IMG/VR virus record: IMGVR_UViG_3300043823_000409
Coordinates: 1 to 53,566 of that record
From: a virus
DNA: 53,566 nt
Reading direction: 5' to 3' (one strand)
Shown here: positions 42,652 through 53,566 of the stretch, one piece after another
How positions within the stretch are numbered: the stretch's first letter is position 1
Layout: every line of letters starts with the position of its first letter
Position numbers and translations under genes: made by a program
Notes under the pieces: generated by a model
Seen by the model: the letters and a program-made list of their open reading frames with translations, nothing else
Told to the model about the DNA's origin: nothing
Database searches by the model: none

Positions 42652-42885
42652 TTAATAAAAGTTGCCGCCGCCGATTTCGTTGAGGTTTTTACCTGGGCCA
42701 ACTTTGCTATCTTTTGTTACTTTAGCTTGTTTAGCACCAATTTTCCAATTGTTATCACGGTGTGAACCAGAATTACCTTTGTCAATTGTTGTTTCACCAG
42801 GACCACCAGCATAGCCAGGTGTTCCAGTCATTTTATATGATTTGCGGAAGCCTAATTCGCCGCCATCTTGTTTTTTAGTCGCCAT
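42652..42885 (-). CDS. Small Gly/Lys-rich protein
   Basis: 77 aa, Gly/Lys/Asn-rich and probably disordered (GTPGYAGGPGETTIDKGN; KVGPGKNLNEIGGGNFY). Starts at the portal stop (42885). No family recognised; may be a small virion protein. Confidence 0.55.
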   Translation of the reverse strand: MATKKQDGGELGFRKSYKMTGTPGYAGGPGETTIDKGNSGSHRDNNWKIGAKQAKVTKDSKVGPGKNLNEIGGGNFY

Positions 42886-45767
42886 TATTGTCCTTCAGTT
42901 GGTTGTTGTGGTTGTGCTTCTTGCATTTGTTGCATTTGTTGCATTTGTTGCTGGTGTTGTTGATCAGATTGCGCCATTTGTTGAGCATTTTGCTGGTCAG
43001 ATTGCATCATTTGTTGGGCATTTTGTTGTGCCTGTTGGCGTAATTGCTGTTGATGTTGTTGTTCTGCTTGTTGTGCCTCAATTTGTTGTTGAACTTGTTG
43101 GGCTTGTTGGTCAAAAAACTGCTGCTGTACTGCTAAACCATGCTGGCGAATATCTTGTTCGGCAGTTTGGATAGCCTCACGTGCAGACTGATCTTGATCT
43201 GCTTCCAATTGAGCTTGCATTTGGCTCATTTGCGCACCAGCTGTGATCATTGCCACACGCTCTTTAGCAGAGTTGTTAATATTGGCCATTGCAATATCTG
43301 TTGCATTGCGTTGGTTGTCAATATTTGTCTGAGTGCTGTACTTAGCTTGCAATTCCTGAACTTTAGCTTGCAATTGTGCAACTTTGATTTGGTAATCTTG
43401 CTGCATGTTTTTCGTATCAAGCTGCATTTGAGCTTGTGCTTCTTGCAACTTGCGTTGAGTTTCAGCAGTTTGGGTTTTAACAATAGCGGCAGCTGTAGGA
43501 TCTGACAACATTTGAGATTGTTGTTGAGATTGTTGAGCCTGAGCTACGTTTTGAGCCAATTGTTGAATTTGTGGCAAGAATTGTGCCAGCATTTGCTGAG
43601 CGTCTTGGTTGACCATTTGTGATGCCAGGACCAAGGCTTGCTGCGAATTTTGATCCATTGGCTGCTCTTTGTGCAGTTTTAGCTCGTCTTTTCCGCCGGC
43701 TGCATTTGCAACATAACCGCTCATAGATTGCAAGTAGTGCAACGTCAAGTGTTGCTTGATATGCTCTAACGCATGCGGTGCAAACGTTGGTCCAATAACT
43801 GGGTTTCCACCGAAAGCAGTATTCTGAGCGTACTCCAAGTGAATCTTAATGTGCGCGATGTGATCTTGATCAGGGAATGCTGCAGCAGGCTGACCCATTG
43901 TCATTGAAACGTTTTCAAGCGCTGGGTTAGACTCATTTACACCCATTGGGTTCGGCAATATTTCATCAATTTCAGGGATCTTGAGCTGCTTTAATACACG
44001 ACGATACACTGCACGTGCATCAAACATGTTGGGAGGCGCGCTGCCCATCATCTGTAACAGGGCTTGATTTTGAGCTAAGCGTTGTGTTTCAGAGAAAATA
44101 TTGGGATCGGAAACTGGGCGAACATCAGAGTTGTACGCAAAATCACGAACTTCAATCTCAGTTCCAGATTGGTTGTCCATTTCAGACAAGTACCAGTGGT
44201 TGATACGAGATAGAATTTTGAGGGATTTAGCTTGGCTACGATGTAAGCGGGCATGAATGCTAGAGAATACTTTAGCACCCTGTTCAATTAATGCTTGTGT
44301 TGTTCCAACTGGAGTATTTGCATTAGCGTCTGAAATCTTTTCTTCAGCTGTTGTGACAACGCCTTTAGCTGCGTTAGTTAGCCAATCAAGCAGGCTTAAT
44401 AAGACTGAAGACGGTGGATTAAACGGCATCGGCATCGCAATCTTGCGAATGTCATCAACACCAGGACCACTTTCTACTTCAACTACTTGGGTAGGTTCGA
44501 TCCTGTCAGACTGTCCACTAACTCGTCCAGTTTTGAGTTTAAGCATCGTCTGACTGTTGTTGATATGAGCAGCGTCCAACAAAGCACGTAAAGAGCCAGT
44601 AAGAGCAGCAGACAGACCACCAATAAGATGGGGCAGGCCAATAGCATAAGCACCGCGCCAAGGAATGAATTTGAACTCAACGATCCAGTCCAACTTCTCA
44701 CGTTTTTCATCGTTTGCGTCCCAGTTACGGTACAGAGATAATACTTTACCGCTTGTTTCATCAATAGTTAAAATATAAGGTGCGCGTTCTCCATCGGTTT
44801 CTGGATCAGCGTCTAAGCGCATAAAGCAAGTAATCTCATAAATACGACGCAACTCGTCGATATTTTCTGAAGGCATGTCTTTGCCTTCGATCTTAGCGTT
44901 TGCTTCTTCAGATCGAGTTTGATCTGTTAACGGTGCATCCGATGTTGAAACAACGTGGATATCGCGGTATAAGCCTTGCTCAATGCGTTTTAAGTAAATG
45001 TCGCCAGTGATGTCTTGTTGCTCGGTGACACGCTGGGAGGTATAGAAATTTGTGGAGGAATACGGCAGGATGATGTTATCAATCGGAATCCACTCGCAAG
45101 ATGGGCGAGATTGCTCTTCATCGTAACGCCATTTAAGGAACTGTGAACCACCAAGTGGTAGCTGTGTAAGAAGCTGTTCCATTTCATCGCGGTATTCTGC
45201 GATTTGTTCTGTGAACTGCCAGTTAAGAAACTCGGCTTTACGCCCAGCAACTTTTTCTTTTTGGTCGCTGTCTTCACCTTTGATATCGGTTTTAACAATA
45301 CCATCAGATGGGAGAAGTTCTTTTGACGCGCTGGCTGCAAAGTCAACGCAAGCCTCTGCCATTACTGGATGAACGACTTTAGAAGCTCCGTCAAAAGTAG
45401 CGCCACCAGGAGCGTCTTTGCCAAGACCAGTACGACGTAAGCCCTCTTCGTATTGCTTATCCCTTTGTTTGCGCGCTTCTTTGTCGACATCAATGTAATC
45501 CAAGTATTCATTGGCAAGGGATTGCAAATCCCCCTCATCCAGTTCTTCAGCCAAGTTGGCATAGAATTCTGGATCTTTGAGCGGGCTTGACTTTTCTTTG
45601 TAGTTTACAACTACTGAGCCATCATCCAGTTCAATGTACTCTTCGTCGACTTCATCGGAGTCTAAACCGAAGACAGCTTCGTATTCTTGGTCTAACTCTT
45701 CTTTATCATCTTGGTCGAGTCCGGGCAGATTACTGCCAGACTGAATCGGTAACTGTGGTTGTGCCAT
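42885..45767 (-). CDS. Portal protein
   Basis: 960 aa. The N-terminal 150 residues are acidic (EELDQEYEAVFGLDSDEVDEE). The core (~140-620) has portal features: LPLGGSQFLKWRYDEEQSRP, FIPWRGAYAIGLPHLIGGLSAALTGSLRALLDA and PPSSVLLSLLDWLTNAAKG, then the stem region (VGTTQALIEQGAKVFSSIHARLHRSQ). From ~700 on the sequence becomes a very Gln-rich coiled coil ending in repeated QQMQQM units, an unusually long barrel or crown tail. It would form the dodecameric DNA gate next to TerL. First gene after promoter P9. Confidence 0.85.
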   Translation of the reverse strand: MAQPQLPIQSGSNLPGLDQDDKEELDQEYEAVFGLDSDEVDEEYIELDDGSVVVNYKEKSSPLKDPEFYANLAEELDEGDLQSLANEYLDYIDVDKEARKQRDKQYEEGLRRTGLGKDAPGGATFDGASKVVHPVMAEACVDFAASASKELLPSDGIVKTDIKGEDSDQKEKVAGRKAEFLNWQFTEQIAEYRDEMEQLLTQLPLGGSQFLKWRYDEEQSRPSCEWIPIDNIILPYSSTNFYTSQRVTEQQDITGDIYLKRIEQGLYRDIHVVSTSDAPLTDQTRSEEANAKIEGKDMPSENIDELRRIYEITCFMRLDADPETDGERAPYILTIDETSGKVLSLYRNWDANDEKREKLDWIVEFKFIPWRGAYAIGLPHLIGGLSAALTGSLRALLDAAHINNSQTMLKLKTGRVSGQSDRIEPTQVVEVESGPGVDDIRKIAMPMPFNPPSSVLLSLLDWLTNAAKGVVTTAEEKISDANANTPVGTTQALIEQGAKVFSSIHARLHRSQAKSLKILSRINHWYLSEMDNQSGTEIEVRDFAYNSDVRPVSDPNIFSETQRLAQNQALLQMMGSAPPNMFDARAVYRRVLKQLKIPEIDEILPNPMGVNESNPALENVSMTMGQPAAAFPDQDHIAHIKIHLEYAQNTAFGGNPVIGPTFAPHALEHIKQHLTLHYLQSMSGYVANAAGGKDELKLHKEQPMDQNSQQALVLASQMVNQDAQQMLAQFLPQIQQLAQNVAQAQQSQQQSQMLSDPTAAAIVKTQTAETQRKLQEAQAQMQLDTKNMQQDYQIKVAQLQAKVQELQAKYSTQTNIDNQRNATDIAMANINNSAKERVAMITAGAQMSQMQAQLEADQDQSAREAIQTAEQDIRQHGLAVQQQFFDQQAQQVQQQIEAQQAEQQHQQQLRQQAQQNAQQMMQSDQQNAQQMAQSDQQHQQQMQQMQQMQEAQPQQPTEGQ

Positions 45768-45827: not shown

Positions 45828-45867
45828 TAATTTAACTAATACGCTAAACGAGGGAAATCCGCCCTTA
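45828..45867 (-). promoter_or_regulatory. GCGTATTAGT-type phage promoter P9
   Basis: Minus strand: TAAGGGC (45867-45861) overlapping the TerL stop, 16 bp, GCGTATTAGT (45844-45835), predicted start A45828, ~60-nt leader to the portal ATG. Confidence 0.7.
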
Positions 45868-47310
45868 TTGGGCATAAGGATTGGCAAAACGGCTTCTGGG
45901 GTTATCATCGGCATAATCGTAATCCCTAGCTGGCAGGGGATCTAAGTGAATCCAGCCGGCATCTCGTAAAACACGCAATGCTTGGGATAATGAATCCACA
46001 TAGTCATCGTGGCCTTTTGCTTCAGGAAAAGAGCATACTTGGCGGATAAAACGCTTCGCCCACTCCGCAAATTCATTCTTTTTTGCCATATCTTCAGGGA
46101 TATACACTCGGCCCTTTGCAATTAATGGTGCCACAATGTTCAAACGCTGCACCTTATCCGCTCTGCCAGGGTTGTATCCTTTAACCGGCACACCAGAACC
46201 TTGGAGTTCTTGGATGAGCGATATACCAGCGGATTTATCTTCCATCAAAATAAGGTCTGCTTTTCTTCCTTTTCCAAAGTCATTATCCGCCCCGTATACC
46301 ACCTCTTTGAAATCCTCGATTATTTTACGCCGCAATTCGGGGTAAGACAGGTGATGGTCCCATGAATCCAGTAATATCACACAAGTCCCCACGTCGGTAT
46401 TTTCAAAGACGCCCCATACTGTGCATGCTGTCGGATCGTTCACTGTCTTTTCGCTGGTAGCCGGATCATATGACGCAATGACGTATTCTAGGTTTGGTGT
46501 TGGCTTATTGGATGGCCACATCTTGAAGTGTTTACGCTTGACAATACCCGCTTCTTCCGGATCTAATATCTCGCCGTAGATCTCCTGTCTACCAATGTCG
46601 GTTCCATCATAAGTCTCAAGTTGTTTGAAGAAGGTTGCTGATAGGTTTTCCTTATTATCAAACGATGACGCGTTAACCATATACACATCCCCACCCACTT
46701 TCCCTTCAGCAAGGTCCACGATCAATTCGCGTGGCTTTGGTGTTGTGGTGATGATCTGCTGAACACGAGCAATACGTGGATCTTTAAGACGCAGCGTGAA
46801 CTGTACGCCATCGTAAGCGTCGTCTAAGTAATCAAACGCGCATAACTCATCGAACCAAGCTCCATGATACTGCTTACCACGATACCGTTCTGGTTCTGAC
46901 GCTGGAATACCTTGGATAATGGATCCATTGGTTAACGTGATTTCAAACAATGACTTGTTGTAGTCTCGGATAAGTGATGCTGGAATAATGTTGAGTAGTC
47001 CAGAGTCTCCTTCAAAACAAGTTGCTCGGATGTCGTTTGACGTTGGCGCCGTAACCAACCAGCGGGTGTTGTCATACAGCCAAGCACGGATACCAATCCA
47101 GTGAGCCGCAGTATGTGTCTTACCAGATCCTCGTCCTGCCAGCATGAGGAAAGTGTCATACTCTCCGTCTTCCGGTTCCTTTTGGTGCGGTAGTGCTTGG
47201 ATTTTCCATTTGATCCGCCAGATTGCAGCATCGAGGGCCTGTTTGGGCCAGTGCTTCCTTTCGTCTGCGAACTTCTTCAATATTTGTTGTTGTTCTTTGG
47301 TTAATTGCAT
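45865..47310 (-). CDS. terL: Terminase large subunit
   Basis: 481 aa. ATPase: Walker A LAGRGSGKTH (57-66), Walker B AWFDE with Asp154/Glu155, coupling region IITTTPKPREL. Nuclease: Asp282 (ASYDPATS), Glu357/Asp358 (ILMEDKSAG) and Asp435/Asp436/Asp439 (GHDDYVDSLSQAL), the RNase H-like metal triad region. It pumps and cuts DNA during packaging. The ATG overlaps the end of the intein-like ORF by ten bases in another frame. Confidence 0.93.
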   Translation of the reverse strand: MQLTKEQQQILKKFADERKHWPKQALDAAIWRIKWKIQALPHQKEPEDGEYDTFLMLAGRGSGKTHTAAHWIGIRAWLYDNTRWLVTAPTSNDIRATCFEGDSGLLNIIPASLIRDYNKSLFEITLTNGSIIQGIPASEPERYRGKQYHGAWFDELCAFDYLDDAYDGVQFTLRLKDPRIARVQQIITTTPKPRELIVDLAEGKVGGDVYMVNASSFDNKENLSATFFKQLETYDGTDIGRQEIYGEILDPEEAGIVKRKHFKMWPSNKPTPNLEYVIASYDPATSEKTVNDPTACTVWGVFENTDVGTCVILLDSWDHHLSYPELRRKIIEDFKEVVYGADNDFGKGRKADLILMEDKSAGISLIQELQGSGVPVKGYNPGRADKVQRLNIVAPLIAKGRVYIPEDMAKKNEFAEWAKRFIRQVCSFPEAKGHDDYVDSLSQALRVLRDAGWIHLDPLPARDYDYADDNPRSRFANPYAQ

Positions 47311-48272
47311 GCTATAAATCCTTCTCCTACCAATATACCGCTTTCGGGGTTTTCTGTTTCAATGTGGACACAGCCTTGCGGAATGATGGCGTACACATCG
47401 CAAATAAACCGCCAGTTATGTCTTACGATTGGTTTTGGTGGTGGTTGTTCGGGTGATATGATCAGTTTGCTTTTAAAGTACAGTGAGTAGAAGCGGTTAA
47501 ATTTCAATGTGGTCTTACAACCCAATGACTCCGCTAAAAACTGGATTTGCCTTATTACCAATTTATTATAAGACGAAATACAGAACTTATCCTTGGCTTT
47601 ATTGTATCTGCGCCCACGAGATAGCATAATCCCAGAAAGCAACTCTTGGCGCTGCTCAAAACTACCAAGTAAGTAATTATTCGGAATGATTGACGGAATG
47701 GGCGCCAACTGAGAATAGATTGATGGCTTGGTCTTGAAGTTAACGCTCTTTTTTGAACGAAATTCTTTCAGATAGCCATGGTCCAAGAATTTCTGTGAAA
47801 TGAATTCTTCATACTCAGTTGGGATTTTTAATGTCTTGTCTGACTTGCGGTTGAAGAACCAAAATCCAAATATGAATGGGGGAACAGGAAGATCTTGAGC
47901 TGGGAATTGAAGCGGCCCCGCTGTGGGGACAGAGTAGGCAAGACGCGTTGGTCTCCCCTCTAGCGGAATGCTGGCGAGTTCTTCGGCAGTCTTAATCTTT
48001 GGCTGCCTGCGGAATTTGAACCTACCTTTGTACTCGCTTGCTCGATTGCGGTACTTTTCGTTCTCGATTGGAATTTTAAGCTGGGAGTCACCAGCGATCT
48101 CAGTTCCATCTCGAAATTCAATGCGATAGCAATTCTGGGCGCGATAATGCTGCACCACCTTTACCTTAGTTGGTTTACCAAATCGATCGAATAAAATGTC
48201 ACCCGGTTTTAAATCTGACGCTATTTTCCAATAGTCAAGGGTTAACACCTTTTGTGTTGCCAAAATTGCCAT
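47301..48272 (-). CDS. Free-standing degenerate intein (Hint plus LAGLIDADG)
   Basis: 323 aa whose ends coincide with intein ends. Block A is AILATQKVLTLDYWKIASDLKPGD with Ala2 in the place of Cys1, directly after the start Met. Block B is RDGTEIAGDSQLKI with Gln64 where His is expected. The two LAGLIDADG motifs are FIFGFWFFNR (133-142) and ELLSGIMLSRG (210-220), both lacking the catalytic acid (Asn/Arg in place of Asp-Gly positions). Blocks F and G are CDVYAIIPQGCVHIE and GEGFIACN, with Cys for the penultimate His and terminal Asn followed by stop. There are no exteins. It overlaps the 102-aa gene by 38 bases and terL by 10. Splicing and cutting both look lost. Confidence 0.8.
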   Translation of the reverse strand: MAILATQKVLTLDYWKIASDLKPGDILFDRFGKPTKVKVVQHYRAQNCYRIEFRDGTEIAGDSQLKIPIENEKYRNRASEYKGRFKFRRQPKIKTAEELASIPLEGRPTRLAYSVPTAGPLQFPAQDLPVPPFIFGFWFFNRKSDKTLKIPTEYEEFISQKFLDHGYLKEFRSKKSVNFKTKPSIYSQLAPIPSIIPNNYLLGSFEQRQELLSGIMLSRGRRYNKAKDKFCISSYNKLVIRQIQFLAESLGCKTTLKFNRFYSLYFKSKLIISPEQPPPKPIVRHNWRFICDVYAIIPQGCVHIETENPESGILVGEGFIACN

Positions 48273-48543
48273 GAAAGTTTTCTAAGACCCATCGGTCTAA
48301 CCAGCGCCCTAACGGCGCACGTATTTTGTTTTGTACTGCATTAGGTAGTTTCTGTATATTCAAGACGGCGTCTGTGACGCCAAGCCTAAATTGGAGGTAC
48401 CGAGCCGTTTCTTTATCAAGAATGGTTTCTGGTACATCTACGGAATCAAAGTTATATAAATCGCATACCAACACACGTAAGCCTTTGAATGTGCCATCGG
48501 CATCTTCCAGGGCTCCCTGTATTTGATAAACGTATTTGTCCAT
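48235..48543 (-). CDS. Hypothetical protein, first late gene, leaderless
   Basis: 102 aa (MDKYVYQIQGALEDADGTFK; LRVLVCDLYNFDSVDVPETI; DKETARYLQFRLGVTDAVLN; RAPLGRWLDRWVLENFHGN). No family recognised. Position before terL would suit a small terminase, but the better TerS candidate is at 3049. Its last 13 codons overlap the intein-like ORF, so its C-terminus may have been altered when that ORF arrived. ATG coincides with the predicted start of P10. Confidence 0.65.
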   Translation of the reverse strand: MDKYVYQIQGALEDADGTFKGLRVLVCDLYNFDSVDVPETILDKETARYLQFRLGVTDAVLNIQKLPNAVQNKIRAPLGRWLDRWVLENFHGNFGNTKGVNP

Positions 48544-48582
48544 AATCTAACTAATACGCACATTTTGTCGATTTCGCCTTTA
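48543..48582 (-). promoter_or_regulatory. GCGTATTAGT-type phage promoter P10 (leaderless)
   Basis: Minus strand: TAAAGGC (48582-48576), 16 bp, GCGTATTAGT (48559-48550), then 16 bp from its first G to A48543, the A of the ATG. It opens the whole leftward late region. Two operator-like repeats lie immediately upstream. Confidence 0.72.
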
Positions 48583-48617
48583 TAACTGAAAGTTATATCT
48601 ATATAACCAAAAGTTAT
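48581..48617. promoter_or_regulatory. Paired operator-like repeats upstream of P10
   Basis: TATAACTGAAAGTTAT (48581-48596) and TATAACCAAAAGTTAT (48602-48617) match at 14 of 16 positions. Each is a near inverted repeat with ATAAC/GTTAT arms. Their starts are 21 bp apart, two helical turns. This fits a pair of sites bound cooperatively by a dimeric regulator next to the -35 box of P10. Confidence 0.55.
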
Positions 48618-48619
48618 CA

Positions 48620-48849
48620 TTGACAGGGTTGGCACACTTGTTTGCGTTTTTCCAAGTCGTTCTCCTACTTATTTATTATTTTTTTTTAAAAATAAAAATA
48701 AAAATGAAATAAAGTGTGCCAACCCTGCCAATTTTATGTTAAGTCCTTGATTTTAAAGGAAATTGTCAAAAAAGAAGTGTGCCAATTTCGTGGCAATTTG
48801 ACAGGGTTTGTTTTGCCTATTAGGGTTTACCCTAATAAAAGTGCGCCAA
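48620..48849. repeat. Iteron-like repeats flanking an AT-rich tract; candidate replication origin
   Basis: TTGACAGGGTTGGCACACTT (48620-48639) and its inverted copy at 48712-48731 match at 19 of 20. Further AAGTGTGCCAA units lie at 48775-48785 and, with one change (AAGTGCGCCAA), at 48839-48849. The three direct units are spaced 63 and 64 bp, about six helical turns. Another TTGACAGGG is at 48798-48806. Between the inverted pair is an A/T-only-like tract (48664-48716). The arrangement resembles iteron origins with an unwinding element; a regulatory array is the alternative. Confidence 0.5.
48818..48837. promoter_or_regulatory. Perfect 9-2-9 palindrome
   Basis: TATTAGGGTTTACCCTAATA is a perfect inverted repeat. 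Each arm contains TTAGGG, the core of the -35 box of the phage promoters, so it could be a bipartite binding site for the same factor. Confidence 0.45.
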
Positions 48850-49132
48850 TTTTACAAAAAAAAATTTTAGGAAGTCGACTTTTTGGCTGGAATTCAAAAA
48901 CTTGCTCTTTGGCATGGGGCCACCGCCCGACCACCCCGGTACCTGGAAAGGGTGGACTGGACTGGCAAAAAGGGGACTCCCCAAAAAGGAGGGTCACCAC
49001 TCTGCGAAGTAAGCGCTCACTCACTTAGGCCAGCGCGCCATCTTGGCACTCAACCATCCTGACTGCTAGTAATGGGGACAGAGTGGCACGCTAGCACCGC
49101 GCCCCTTCCGCTCAGCAGGCGCGCACGCTACT

Positions 49133-49147
49133 TGATAATGATTCTCA
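49133..49147. promoter_or_regulatory. Fur-box-like site 1
   Basis: TGATAATGATTCTCA matches the 7-1-7 Fur consensus TGATAATnATTATCA at 13 of 14 defined positions. Confidence 0.5.
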
Positions 49148-49168
49148 TTTGCATCTATGCAGGCGAGA

Positions 49169-49183
49169 TGATAATGGTTCTCA
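49169..49183. promoter_or_regulatory. Fur-box-like site 2
   Basis: TGATAATGGTTCTCA, 36 bp downstream of site 1, two mismatches to the 7-1-7 Fur consensus. Confidence 0.45.
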
Positions 49184-49287
49184 TTCGCATTCAGGCTGGC
49201 GCGCCACGCTGGCTAATAACCATACTGGCAGTGTGGGTATTTGGCAGGGGCTTGACGGCACGGTGGCAATGTGGTAGTTCAGCTAAT

Positions 49288-49302
49288 TGAGAATGATTCT
49301 CA
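49288..49302. promoter_or_regulatory. Fur-box-like site 3
   Basis: TGAGAATGATTCTCA is a perfect 7-1-7 palindrome differing from the Fur consensus by one symmetric change. It is the best dyad of the three. Confidence 0.5.
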
Positions 49303-49603
49303 TTACGCTGGGCGCGGAGGATTGGCAGTGTGGCAATGTGGTGGAGTGGTGGAGTGGGCACGGTGGCTAAGCGCGCGCGAGGAGCTGAGGTGGCAGTGGA
49401 CTCTAAATACCCAAAAAACTGATCAGGCACGCACCCCACAATATCCCACTATGCCCCACAAACGCGTCAGATCGCGCTATACGCCACGATCGCAGTTTGG
49501 CAGGGGATAGCATCACCGCGCGCTGATCTCTAGCAATCCAGTAAACATAAGGCTTTGCTGTCCGTTTTGCCCCGAATTACTATGTTAGTGCTCACTCCGA
49601 ACT

Positions 49604-49619
49604 TTATCACATTGTGAAA
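49604..49619. promoter_or_regulatory. Operator-like palindrome, copy 2
   Basis: TTATCACATTGTGAAA, identical to 5319-5334. It is followed 23 bp from its start by GCGTATATTTCT (49627), a half match to the phage promoter. In copy 1 the spacing is 33 bp, exactly one helical turn more. Confidence 0.5.
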
Positions 49620-49639
49620 CGCAAATGCGTATATTTCTC

Positions 49640-49675
49640 TTGCAATTGTGTTTGGCATCGACGATACTTCTTATA
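49640..49675 (+). promoter_or_regulatory. Possible host sigma-70 promoter for the early operon
   Basis: TTGCAA (49640-49645), 17 bp, GATACT (49663-49668). It reads toward the early operon at 49857, leaving a ~180-nt leader. Its -35 is the same as that of the stronger promoter at 51987. Confidence 0.4.
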
Positions 49676-49856
49676 TCGGAAGTGCAGTGGCTAATCCACT
49701 CAAACACAAACCCAACCGTGATCAATAAGGGGGAGCTGGCAGAACCAGTGGCGTTATCCAATACGCCGTATGACGGACAATAGATAGTAATACTCACAGC
49801 GCATTGGTTATGAGCCAGTGCGCTGGAGGGATTACTAACCAACAAGGAGAATCACC

Positions 49857-50015
49857 ATGACCCATACAGAATGGCTGGAAGAGTTCAACAACCCAAACAA
49901 CCAACAGCGCTACGCAGAGTACTGCGAGCGCATGACAGCATACCGCCACAAGGTCGAGCCATACATTGTATGGTTTAGGACACTGGGTGGATTCCCAAAC
50001 AACGGCACACTATAA
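49857..50015 (+). CDS. Small early protein
   Basis: 52 aa, beginning MTHTEWLEEFNNPNNQQRYA and ending VWFRTLGGFPNNGTL. RBS AAGGAG eight bases before ATG 49857. First gene of the rightward operon. Hydrophilic with a Trp/Tyr-rich centre; no family recognised. Early phage proteins of this size often bind host factors. Confidence 0.7.
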   Translation: MTHTEWLEEFNNPNNQQRYAEYCERMTAYRHKVEPYIVWFRTLGGFPNNGTL

Positions 50016-50026
50016 GGAGCATGAGC

Positions 50027-50203
50027 ATGACACTATCAAGCTATATTAATCAATACGTAAACGCGGACAATGCACGTGAGTACGCTGGGATTGCGGATAA
50101 ATATAATTACATCGTGGACATCACAGGCTTACCTGCAGGGCACAGTTTTATTGAAGTAATCGAAGACTATTTAGATCGCTATTTTGAGTTAAAGGGAGAG
50201 TGA
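50027..50203 (+). CDS. Small early protein
   Basis: 58 aa. ATG 50027 is preferred over ATG 50021 because AAGGAG (50014-50019) is then seven bases away. Acidic and helical (SYINQYVNADNAREYAGIAD; FIEVIEDYLDRYFELKGE). No family recognised. Confidence 0.65.
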   Translation: MTLSSYINQYVNADNAREYAGIADKYNYIVDITGLPAGHSFIEVIEDYLDRYFELKGE

Positions 50204-50205
50204 CC

Positions 50206-50607
50206 ATGGCATACATGAACCAAGACAAAAAGAAAATCATCAAGGCTAACCTAGACAAGGTGCTCAAACCACTGGGCATCAAATACAGCCTGCGCGTTGA
50301 TAACTACATGAGCATCAACTGCACCATCAAGTCAGGCTCGGTGGACTTCATTAATAACATGCGCCAGCGGACTGGTGACAAGTTCAAACTGCACACGGAC
50401 TGTGGATACATCCAAGTCAACCCGTACTGGTTCAATGAGCACTTCACTGGCGAGGCTCACAGTATCATCAACCAAGTGATTGACGGACTGAAGAGTGCGG
50501 ACTGGTACGACAAATCGGACTCGATGGTGGACTACTTTGACACCGCGTATTACATGCACCTAAACATCGGCGCGTGGGACAAACCATACGAACTGAAAGG
50601 CAACTAA
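50206..50607 (+). CDS. Conserved phage protein of unknown function
   Basis: 133 aa from ATG 50206 with GGGAGAG upstream. The order MAYMNQDKKKIIKANLDKVL, YSLRVDNYMSINCTIKSGSVDFI, then SMVDYFDTAYYMHLNIGAWDKPYE is a conserved early phage family also seen in T4-like genomes. It looks like an alpha/beta fold with a conserved C-terminal acidic/aromatic patch. Function not known. Confidence 0.75.
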   Translation: MAYMNQDKKKIIKANLDKVLKPLGIKYSLRVDNYMSINCTIKSGSVDFINNMRQRTGDKFKLHTDCGYIQVNPYWFNEHFTGEAHSIINQVIDGLKSADWYDKSDSMVDYFDTAYYMHLNIGAWDKPYELKGN

Positions 50608-53443: not shown

Positions 53444-53566
53444 CTACCGATACGTCCTCATAGACGAGTTTGGGGGCACGCTACGGCGTTTTGCCAGTAA
53501 GGTGGAGGCTACCCCCTACCTTACTGCTGGAACGCGACTAGAGGTACTCCCAAAGGCTCCTAAAGC
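53436..53566 (+). CDS. Small early protein, 3' end cut off
   Basis: Open frame from TTG 53436 to the window edge (at least 43 codons), beginning TNYRYVLIDEFGGTLRRFAS. GAGG lies six bases before the TTG, and the start overlaps the previous stop by eight bases, as is common in this operon. The N-terminal pattern is typical of small phage proteins. Incomplete. Confidence 0.6.
   Translation, partial: MTNYRYVLIDEFGGTLRRFASKVEATPYLTAGTRLEVLPKAPK

Follow-up and report, generated by a model that had tools for sequence, protein, structure and literature searches.

Fur-type dyads in the early/late control region of a freshwater phage family as candidate operators for host nutrient regulators

The window, a stretch of 53,566 nucleotides that makes up one entire IMG/VR virus record (IMGVR_UViG_3300043823_000409), contains three Fur-type dyads in the control region from which the divergent early and late gene blocks appear to be driven. 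We propose that the Fur protein of the infected cell uses these dyads as operators, a reading to which we assign a probability of about 0.6. In relatives of this phage, the equivalent regions also carry boxes for a second host nutrient regulator, NtrC.

The control region separates the late operon, on the minus strand, from the early genes, which start at position 49857 on the plus strand. The original prediction described the surroundings of the dyads as a gene-free, GC-rich zone ahead of the early operon. This is a fair description: the region is divergent, the only ORFs listed within it are short and unsupported, and the local GC content is 0.52 at 49001-50000 vs ~0.45 across most of the window. 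The relevant features are as follows, with the strand given where the feature has one.

42885-45767, minus strand: portal, in the late block
48235-48543, minus strand: opening ORF of the late operon (102 aa), followed by the terminase ORFs 47301-48272 and 45865-47310
50200-50607, plus strand: early-operon ORF of family phrog_10415, an anchor for finding relatives
48544-49856: divergent control region, flanked by ORF 48235-48543 and the terminase ORFs (minus strand) and by a 52-aa ORF at 49857-50015 (plus strand); it holds all the elements below
48619-48651: left arm of the iteron inverted repeat, GGGTTGGCACACTT, part of an origin-like element with equivalents in relatives
48700-48732: right arm of the iteron inverted repeat, with an AT-rich core between the arms
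48740-48752, minus strand: IHF-like motif AATCAAGGACTTA, adjoining the iterons
48821-48834: third palindrome class, TAGGGTTTACCCTA, enriched in family control regions
49008-49021: AGTAAGCGCTCACT, member of the second palindrome class (AGTNAGNNCTNACT), enriched in family control regions
49133-49147: Fur-type 7-1-7 dyad 1, TGATAATGATTCTCA, no mismatch to TGANAATNATTNTCA
49148-49175, plus strand: possible sigma-70 promoter directed towards the early operon, TTTGCA-16-GATAAT, a weak match
49169-49183: Fur-type dyad 2, TGATAATGGTTCTCA, one mismatch to TGANAATNATTNTCA
49288-49302: Fur-type dyad 3, TGAGAATGATTCTCA, no mismatch to TGANAATNATTNTCA
49605-49619: TATCACATTGTGAAA, member of the fourth palindrome class (TTTCACANTGTGAAA), enriched in family control regions

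The three dyads are of the 7-1-7 type, near TGATAATNATTATCA, and have the sequence of Fur boxes, as had been predicted; the third is indeed a perfect palindrome around its central base. Their chance occurrence had been deemed unlikely, and the numbers bear this out: three sites with at most one mismatch are present in 48544-49856 vs 0.005 expected from first-order Markov shuffles, and none of 3000 such shuffles contained three sites. A promoter scan found six promoter-like sites vs 2.5 expected, and no strong promoter was visible in it beside the dyads. The possible sigma-70 promoter has its -10 element inside dyad 2 and its -35 element abutting dyad 1, but the match is weak because Fur boxes contain GATAAT by nature.

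The terminase large subunit appears to be split over two overlapping ORFs in this phage family (45865-48272 in the window), the first of which has a sub-threshold homing-endonuclease match at residues 196-257. In Caulobacter phages such as GB2A, the terminase is also coded by two genes, with a methyltransferase in between. A search of known phages with the region at the DNA level found nothing. The window has no match to the D5-type primase-helicase gene of the relatives, and IMG/VR found no end repeats for this record; thus, it is probably incomplete and lacks a piece between positions 53566 and 1.

Relatives were identified through their terminases (466 matches in one scan, of which 80 were kept, with 84-91% amino-acid identity). 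The original prediction had suggested looking for the boxes in related phages, and they are there: using a threshold of at most one mismatch, the 80 relatives contain 40 sites in the 96.6 kb located 1.25-3.2 kb upstream of the terminase vs six in the other 702 kb, which represents a 48 times higher density. Two hundred permuted palindromes of the same composition gave 1.2 sites on average vs 40 for the real motif, and the sole high permutation (37 sites) corresponds to the real dyad, only with two of its positions masked. In the records of 24 relatives, 30 sites were found for the pattern vs three for a reversed control. Similarly, 33 sites are found in 48 nonredundant control regions (77 kb), compared with none in 297 kb of late coding DNA. 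Most family members have just one or two Fur dyads each. No Fur gene was detected in 16 family records, so the host's Fur protein would be needed. The same 16 records are devoid of integrase genes, which is apparently in line with a virulent lifestyle.

Beyond the close relatives, a dyad is also found in four contigs with much more distant terminases (33-36% identity; L406, L427, L444 and L454), where it lies upstream of the terminase match by 1.1-2.6 kb; this is no more than suggestive, because these contigs were picked by their Fur site. The examined stretches of two known relatives, Caulobacter phage GB2A and the Manatee Spring contig MW202545, contain no such dyads. Fur boxes are not restricted to this phage family, since exact Fur 19-mers are also present in many viral contigs that are unrelated to it. 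Five unrelated or distant viral contigs (L456, L393, L395, L445 and L042) carry two or three Fur-type dyads each, and those of L456 are each found upstream of a small gene; other phage groups may use Fur boxes too.

Among GTDB representatives, a single genome bin encodes such terminases, a MAG named 'uncultured beta proteobacterium' with three family contigs; the other 185 genomes of its genus gave no match for them. This co-binning in one MAG weakly suggests a betaproteobacterial host. The absence of Fur from the host would speak against the prediction, but a single strong Fur gene was found in this MAG, and Fur is also encoded by 19 of 20 related genomes; the host assignment itself is weak. 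A search for the host Fur regulon motif showed that, in the MAG, the same motif is located upstream of tonB, of genes for a cupredoxin and a HiPIP, and of a DUF6662/FMN-binding operon. In 41 related genomes, there are 56 exact sites vs six for the reversed pattern, and the genes adjoining them code for FeoB-like, FbpA-like, TonB, TonB-receptor-like, HiPIP and DUF6662 proteins (TonB, HiPIP and cupredoxin were called by Pfam; the FeoB-, FbpA- and TonB-receptor-like proteins were recognised from sequence and the others by Pfam or by likeness to MAG proteins). Since it precedes iron genes in the candidate host lineage, the motif is the Fur box of that bacterial group. The phage dyads agree with these bacterial sites in their core, in the G/T variation at positions 4 and 12 and in their A/T flanks, which supports their identification as Fur-box sequences.

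The position of the dyads is conserved in part of the family. In many relatives, the dyad adjoins a conserved motif, AATCAAKGACTTA, which we take to fit the IHF consensus WATCAANNNNTTR; next to this motif, iteron-like repeats are arranged as an inverted repeat around an AT-rich core. At a threshold of at most one mismatch, a dyad starts 28, 29 or 30 nt upstream of the IHF-like motif in 23 of its 50 copies, and no copy has a dyad start at the remaining offsets between 18 and 43 nt. In three relatives (L052, L111 and L200), a dyad is present at both ends of the element, ~203-205 bp apart. In addition, some relatives have a second copy of the element directly upstream of a ~770-aa gene with PriCT_2, D5_N and DUF5906 domains, which identify its product as a D5-type primase-helicase; this is the second locale of the Fur-type dyads. 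The iteron sequence varies between phages, yet it is similar between the two copies of one phage. A known RNA at the iteron hairpin of the window was considered and rejected, as all Rfam matches are sub-threshold microRNAs, below gathering scores.

Taken together, the iteron repeat with its AT-rich core and the neighbouring IHF-like motifs look like an origin. One might imagine that the dyads are architectural, Fur and IHF together shaping the iteron element and gating the firing of the origin rather than transcription. The fixed distance at which dyads flank the palindromic element is in favour of such a role, as is the duplication of the element in some relatives, with one copy beside the primase-helicase gene. 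However, the window as well as L058, L060, L062, L088, L099 and L114 have dyads outside the element, within the GC-rich zone. In the window, they are 380-560 bp away from the IHF/iteron element, outside the conserved register, and unlike in many relatives there is no dyad 28-30 nt upstream of the IHF-like motif. As the origin function is moreover putative, we find such an architectural role unlikely.

When the 48 control regions were searched without bias for exact palindromes, TGCACCA-N3-TGGTGCA ranked first, with 54 exact sites in 26 regions and none in late coding DNA; if one mismatch is allowed, 89 sites are found in 33 regions. In genomes of the host lineage, this box is found upstream of glnA-like (six loci), PII-like (one) and AmtB-like (two) genes, recognised from their protein sequences. 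That a 17-bp TGCACC-type dyad precedes glnA, PII and amtB genes in this lineage indicates that it represents the NtrC box. The original prediction did not mention NtrC. The Fur-type dyads are part of a larger array, in which other members of the family have NtrC boxes, either in place of Fur boxes or alongside them. Exact NtrC boxes (TGCACCANNNTGGTGCA) form arrays upstream of the terminase in L050, L060, L062, L070, L078, L099, L122 and others, with up to seven boxes per control region, sometimes accompanied by sigma-54 -24/-12 elements. No NtrC box was found in the window within three mismatches at 48300-50100. Among the matches listed, 23 of the 25 viral contigs with two or more exact NtrC boxes belong to the phage family, and such arrays look like a signature of it.

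The distribution of the two operator types is patchy. Among the 40 control regions with a length of 1 kb or more, both Fur and NtrC operators occur in 16, Fur alone in six (including the window), NtrC alone in 14 and neither in four, i.e. 36 of them have at least one type. Approximately 45% of the family control regions are devoid of a Fur dyad at one mismatch or less. This includes L050, the relative with the closest terminase (91%), which has several NtrC boxes. Thus, the family does not depend on iron control, and operator types are swapped within short evolutionary times.

Exact sigma-54 elements (TGGCACRNNNNTTGCW) number 13 in control regions and are absent from late coding DNA, and no elements with a spacing of 3 or 5 were found in control regions. 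In four relatives (L060, L062, L088 and L099), a sigma-54 -24/-12 element is followed, 15-29 nt further on, by the start of a Fur dyad. In L099, L060 and L098, sigma-54 elements face each other in palindromes (TGGCATAGATCTTGCTAGGCAAGAAGCGTGCCA), an odd arrangement for a working promoter; they might possibly be a trap for sigma-54 polymerase.

Clusters of this kind bring to mind decoys, as the original prediction had also envisaged: replicated phage genomes would soak up Fur, or NtrC in the relatives, and shift host iron or nitrogen uptake in favour of the phage. Both the clustering of the sites without a strong promoter beside the dyads of the window and the seven NtrC boxes that L060 packs into ~300 bp would suit such a function. 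The low number of Fur dyads in most family members fits it poorly, as they are few relative to a global regulator, which Fur is, and which is usually abundant. A decoy also has no need for a fixed spacing to an IHF-like motif or for a position at the primase-gene promoter. Of the two possibilities raised initially, sensing or decoy, sensing better matches this anatomy, including the dyad located downstream of sigma-54 elements in four relatives, and we regard titration of the regulators as improbable to the same degree as the architectural role.

Four further palindrome classes are enriched in the control regions of the family (TAGGGTNNACCCTA, AGTNAGNNCTNACT, TTTCACANTGTGAAA and TGTTGCNNNGCAACA). 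The window contains such sites at 48821-48834, 49008-49021, 49583-49596 and 49605-49619, with equivalents in relatives, but the class TGTTGCNNNGCAACA is absent from it. When TTAGTNAGNNCTNACTAA was tried as a host operator, no exact copy of it was present in the 41 genomes from relatives of the candidate host. This variety of palindromes, together with the fact that most early proteins have no assigned family, leaves some room for the Fur-type dyad being the operator of a phage-encoded or of another host regulator, with an accidental resemblance to the Fur box. We consider this rather implausible, given that core, positions 4 and 12 and flanks all match the iron-gene sites of the candidate host lineage. 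Finally, a chance or compositional artefact is highly improbable in spite of the exact Fur-like 19-mers in many unrelated viral contigs, as it is contradicted by the enrichment in the window, by the conserved position in the family and by the absence of sites from late coding DNA.

We thus favour the hypothesis that the dyads are operators for the host's Fur. Points that weigh against it are the host assignment by one MAG, the location of the window's dyads out of the conserved register and with no strong promoter visible next to them, and the many family control regions that lack a Fur dyad. In an iron-sufficient cell, holo-Fur would bind the dyads and restrain, or less likely assist, transcription and the start-up of replication, and in an iron-poor cell this control would be released. 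Host Fur would act on phage transcription and perhaps also on the origin-like element. Fur is mostly a repressor, and in L060, L062, L088 and L099 Fur bound behind the sigma-54 element would block initiation; for these two reasons, repression in iron-sufficient cells is the likeliest sign of regulation. In the relatives, host NtrC would likewise tune early and late transcription and replication to the nutrient state. The initial proposal that the phage senses the iron state of its host through Fur is thus supported in part, as regards the dyads, which are enriched, positionally conserved Fur-box sequences identical in type to an iron-gene motif of the candidate host lineage, in phages without a Fur gene of their own; the response to iron itself is what we infer from them.

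More generally, the most fitting interpretation of the control region as a whole is an array in which operators for different nutrient regulators of the host can be exchanged. Such operators occur above chance in the family, and the promoter match of the window is a weak, sigma-70-like one. It is about an even bet that this widespread freshwater phage family uses a fast-changing combinatorial array, made up of Fur sites, NtrC sites with sigma-54 promoters and at least four further palindrome classes, in the early/late control region and beside the primase-helicase gene, so that the nutrient state of the host would set core transcription and replication. If this is true, these phages time or scale the start of replication by means of the iron and nitrogen regulators of their hosts while carrying no nutrient gene, and the availability of iron and nitrogen in lakes is directly linked to virus productivity. 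Readable operators could also allow the physiology, and perhaps the identity, of the hosts of uncultured phages to be deduced.

Control of phages by host nutrient regulators is already known from cyanophages, with PhoB and NtcA, but we found no earlier report in the open-licence literature of an apparently virulent phage with a control region built of Fur and NtrC operators. Cyanophage genes under PhoB control through Pho boxes include pstS of P-SSM2 and S-PM2d004/133/134, and the PhoB-bound promoters of S-PM2d include those of the DNA polymerase and of a UvsX-like gene, i.e. core replication genes (PMC10976474). There, virulent phages rely on a nutrient regulator of the host, as we also propose for the present case; in contrast, the cyanophage systems involve phosphate and PhoB, with sites scattered before single genes and demonstrated binding, whereas here iron and Fur (and NtrC) would operate on predicted sites clustered in one region. 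Some predicted Pho boxes of S-PM2d did not bind PhoB (PMC10976474), showing that predicted phage operators can fail. NtcA sites are located upstream of cyanophage nitrogen genes (PMC8115048). Like the NtrC boxes described here, they are predicted sites for a host nitrogen regulator in a phage, but they precede host-derived metabolic genes, while no nutrient gene is involved in our case. Temperate lambda-type coliphages have Fur boxes before the sitABCD operon (PMC6969025). There too, a Fur box is part of a phage genome, but in those temperate phages it drives a cargo metal transporter, whereas here it belongs to the control region of a phage without integrase. The bacterial Fur box itself, a 7-1-7 dyad, has the same core, symmetry and flanks as the phage dyads; it is found upstream of iron genes, and here it is located in a phage.
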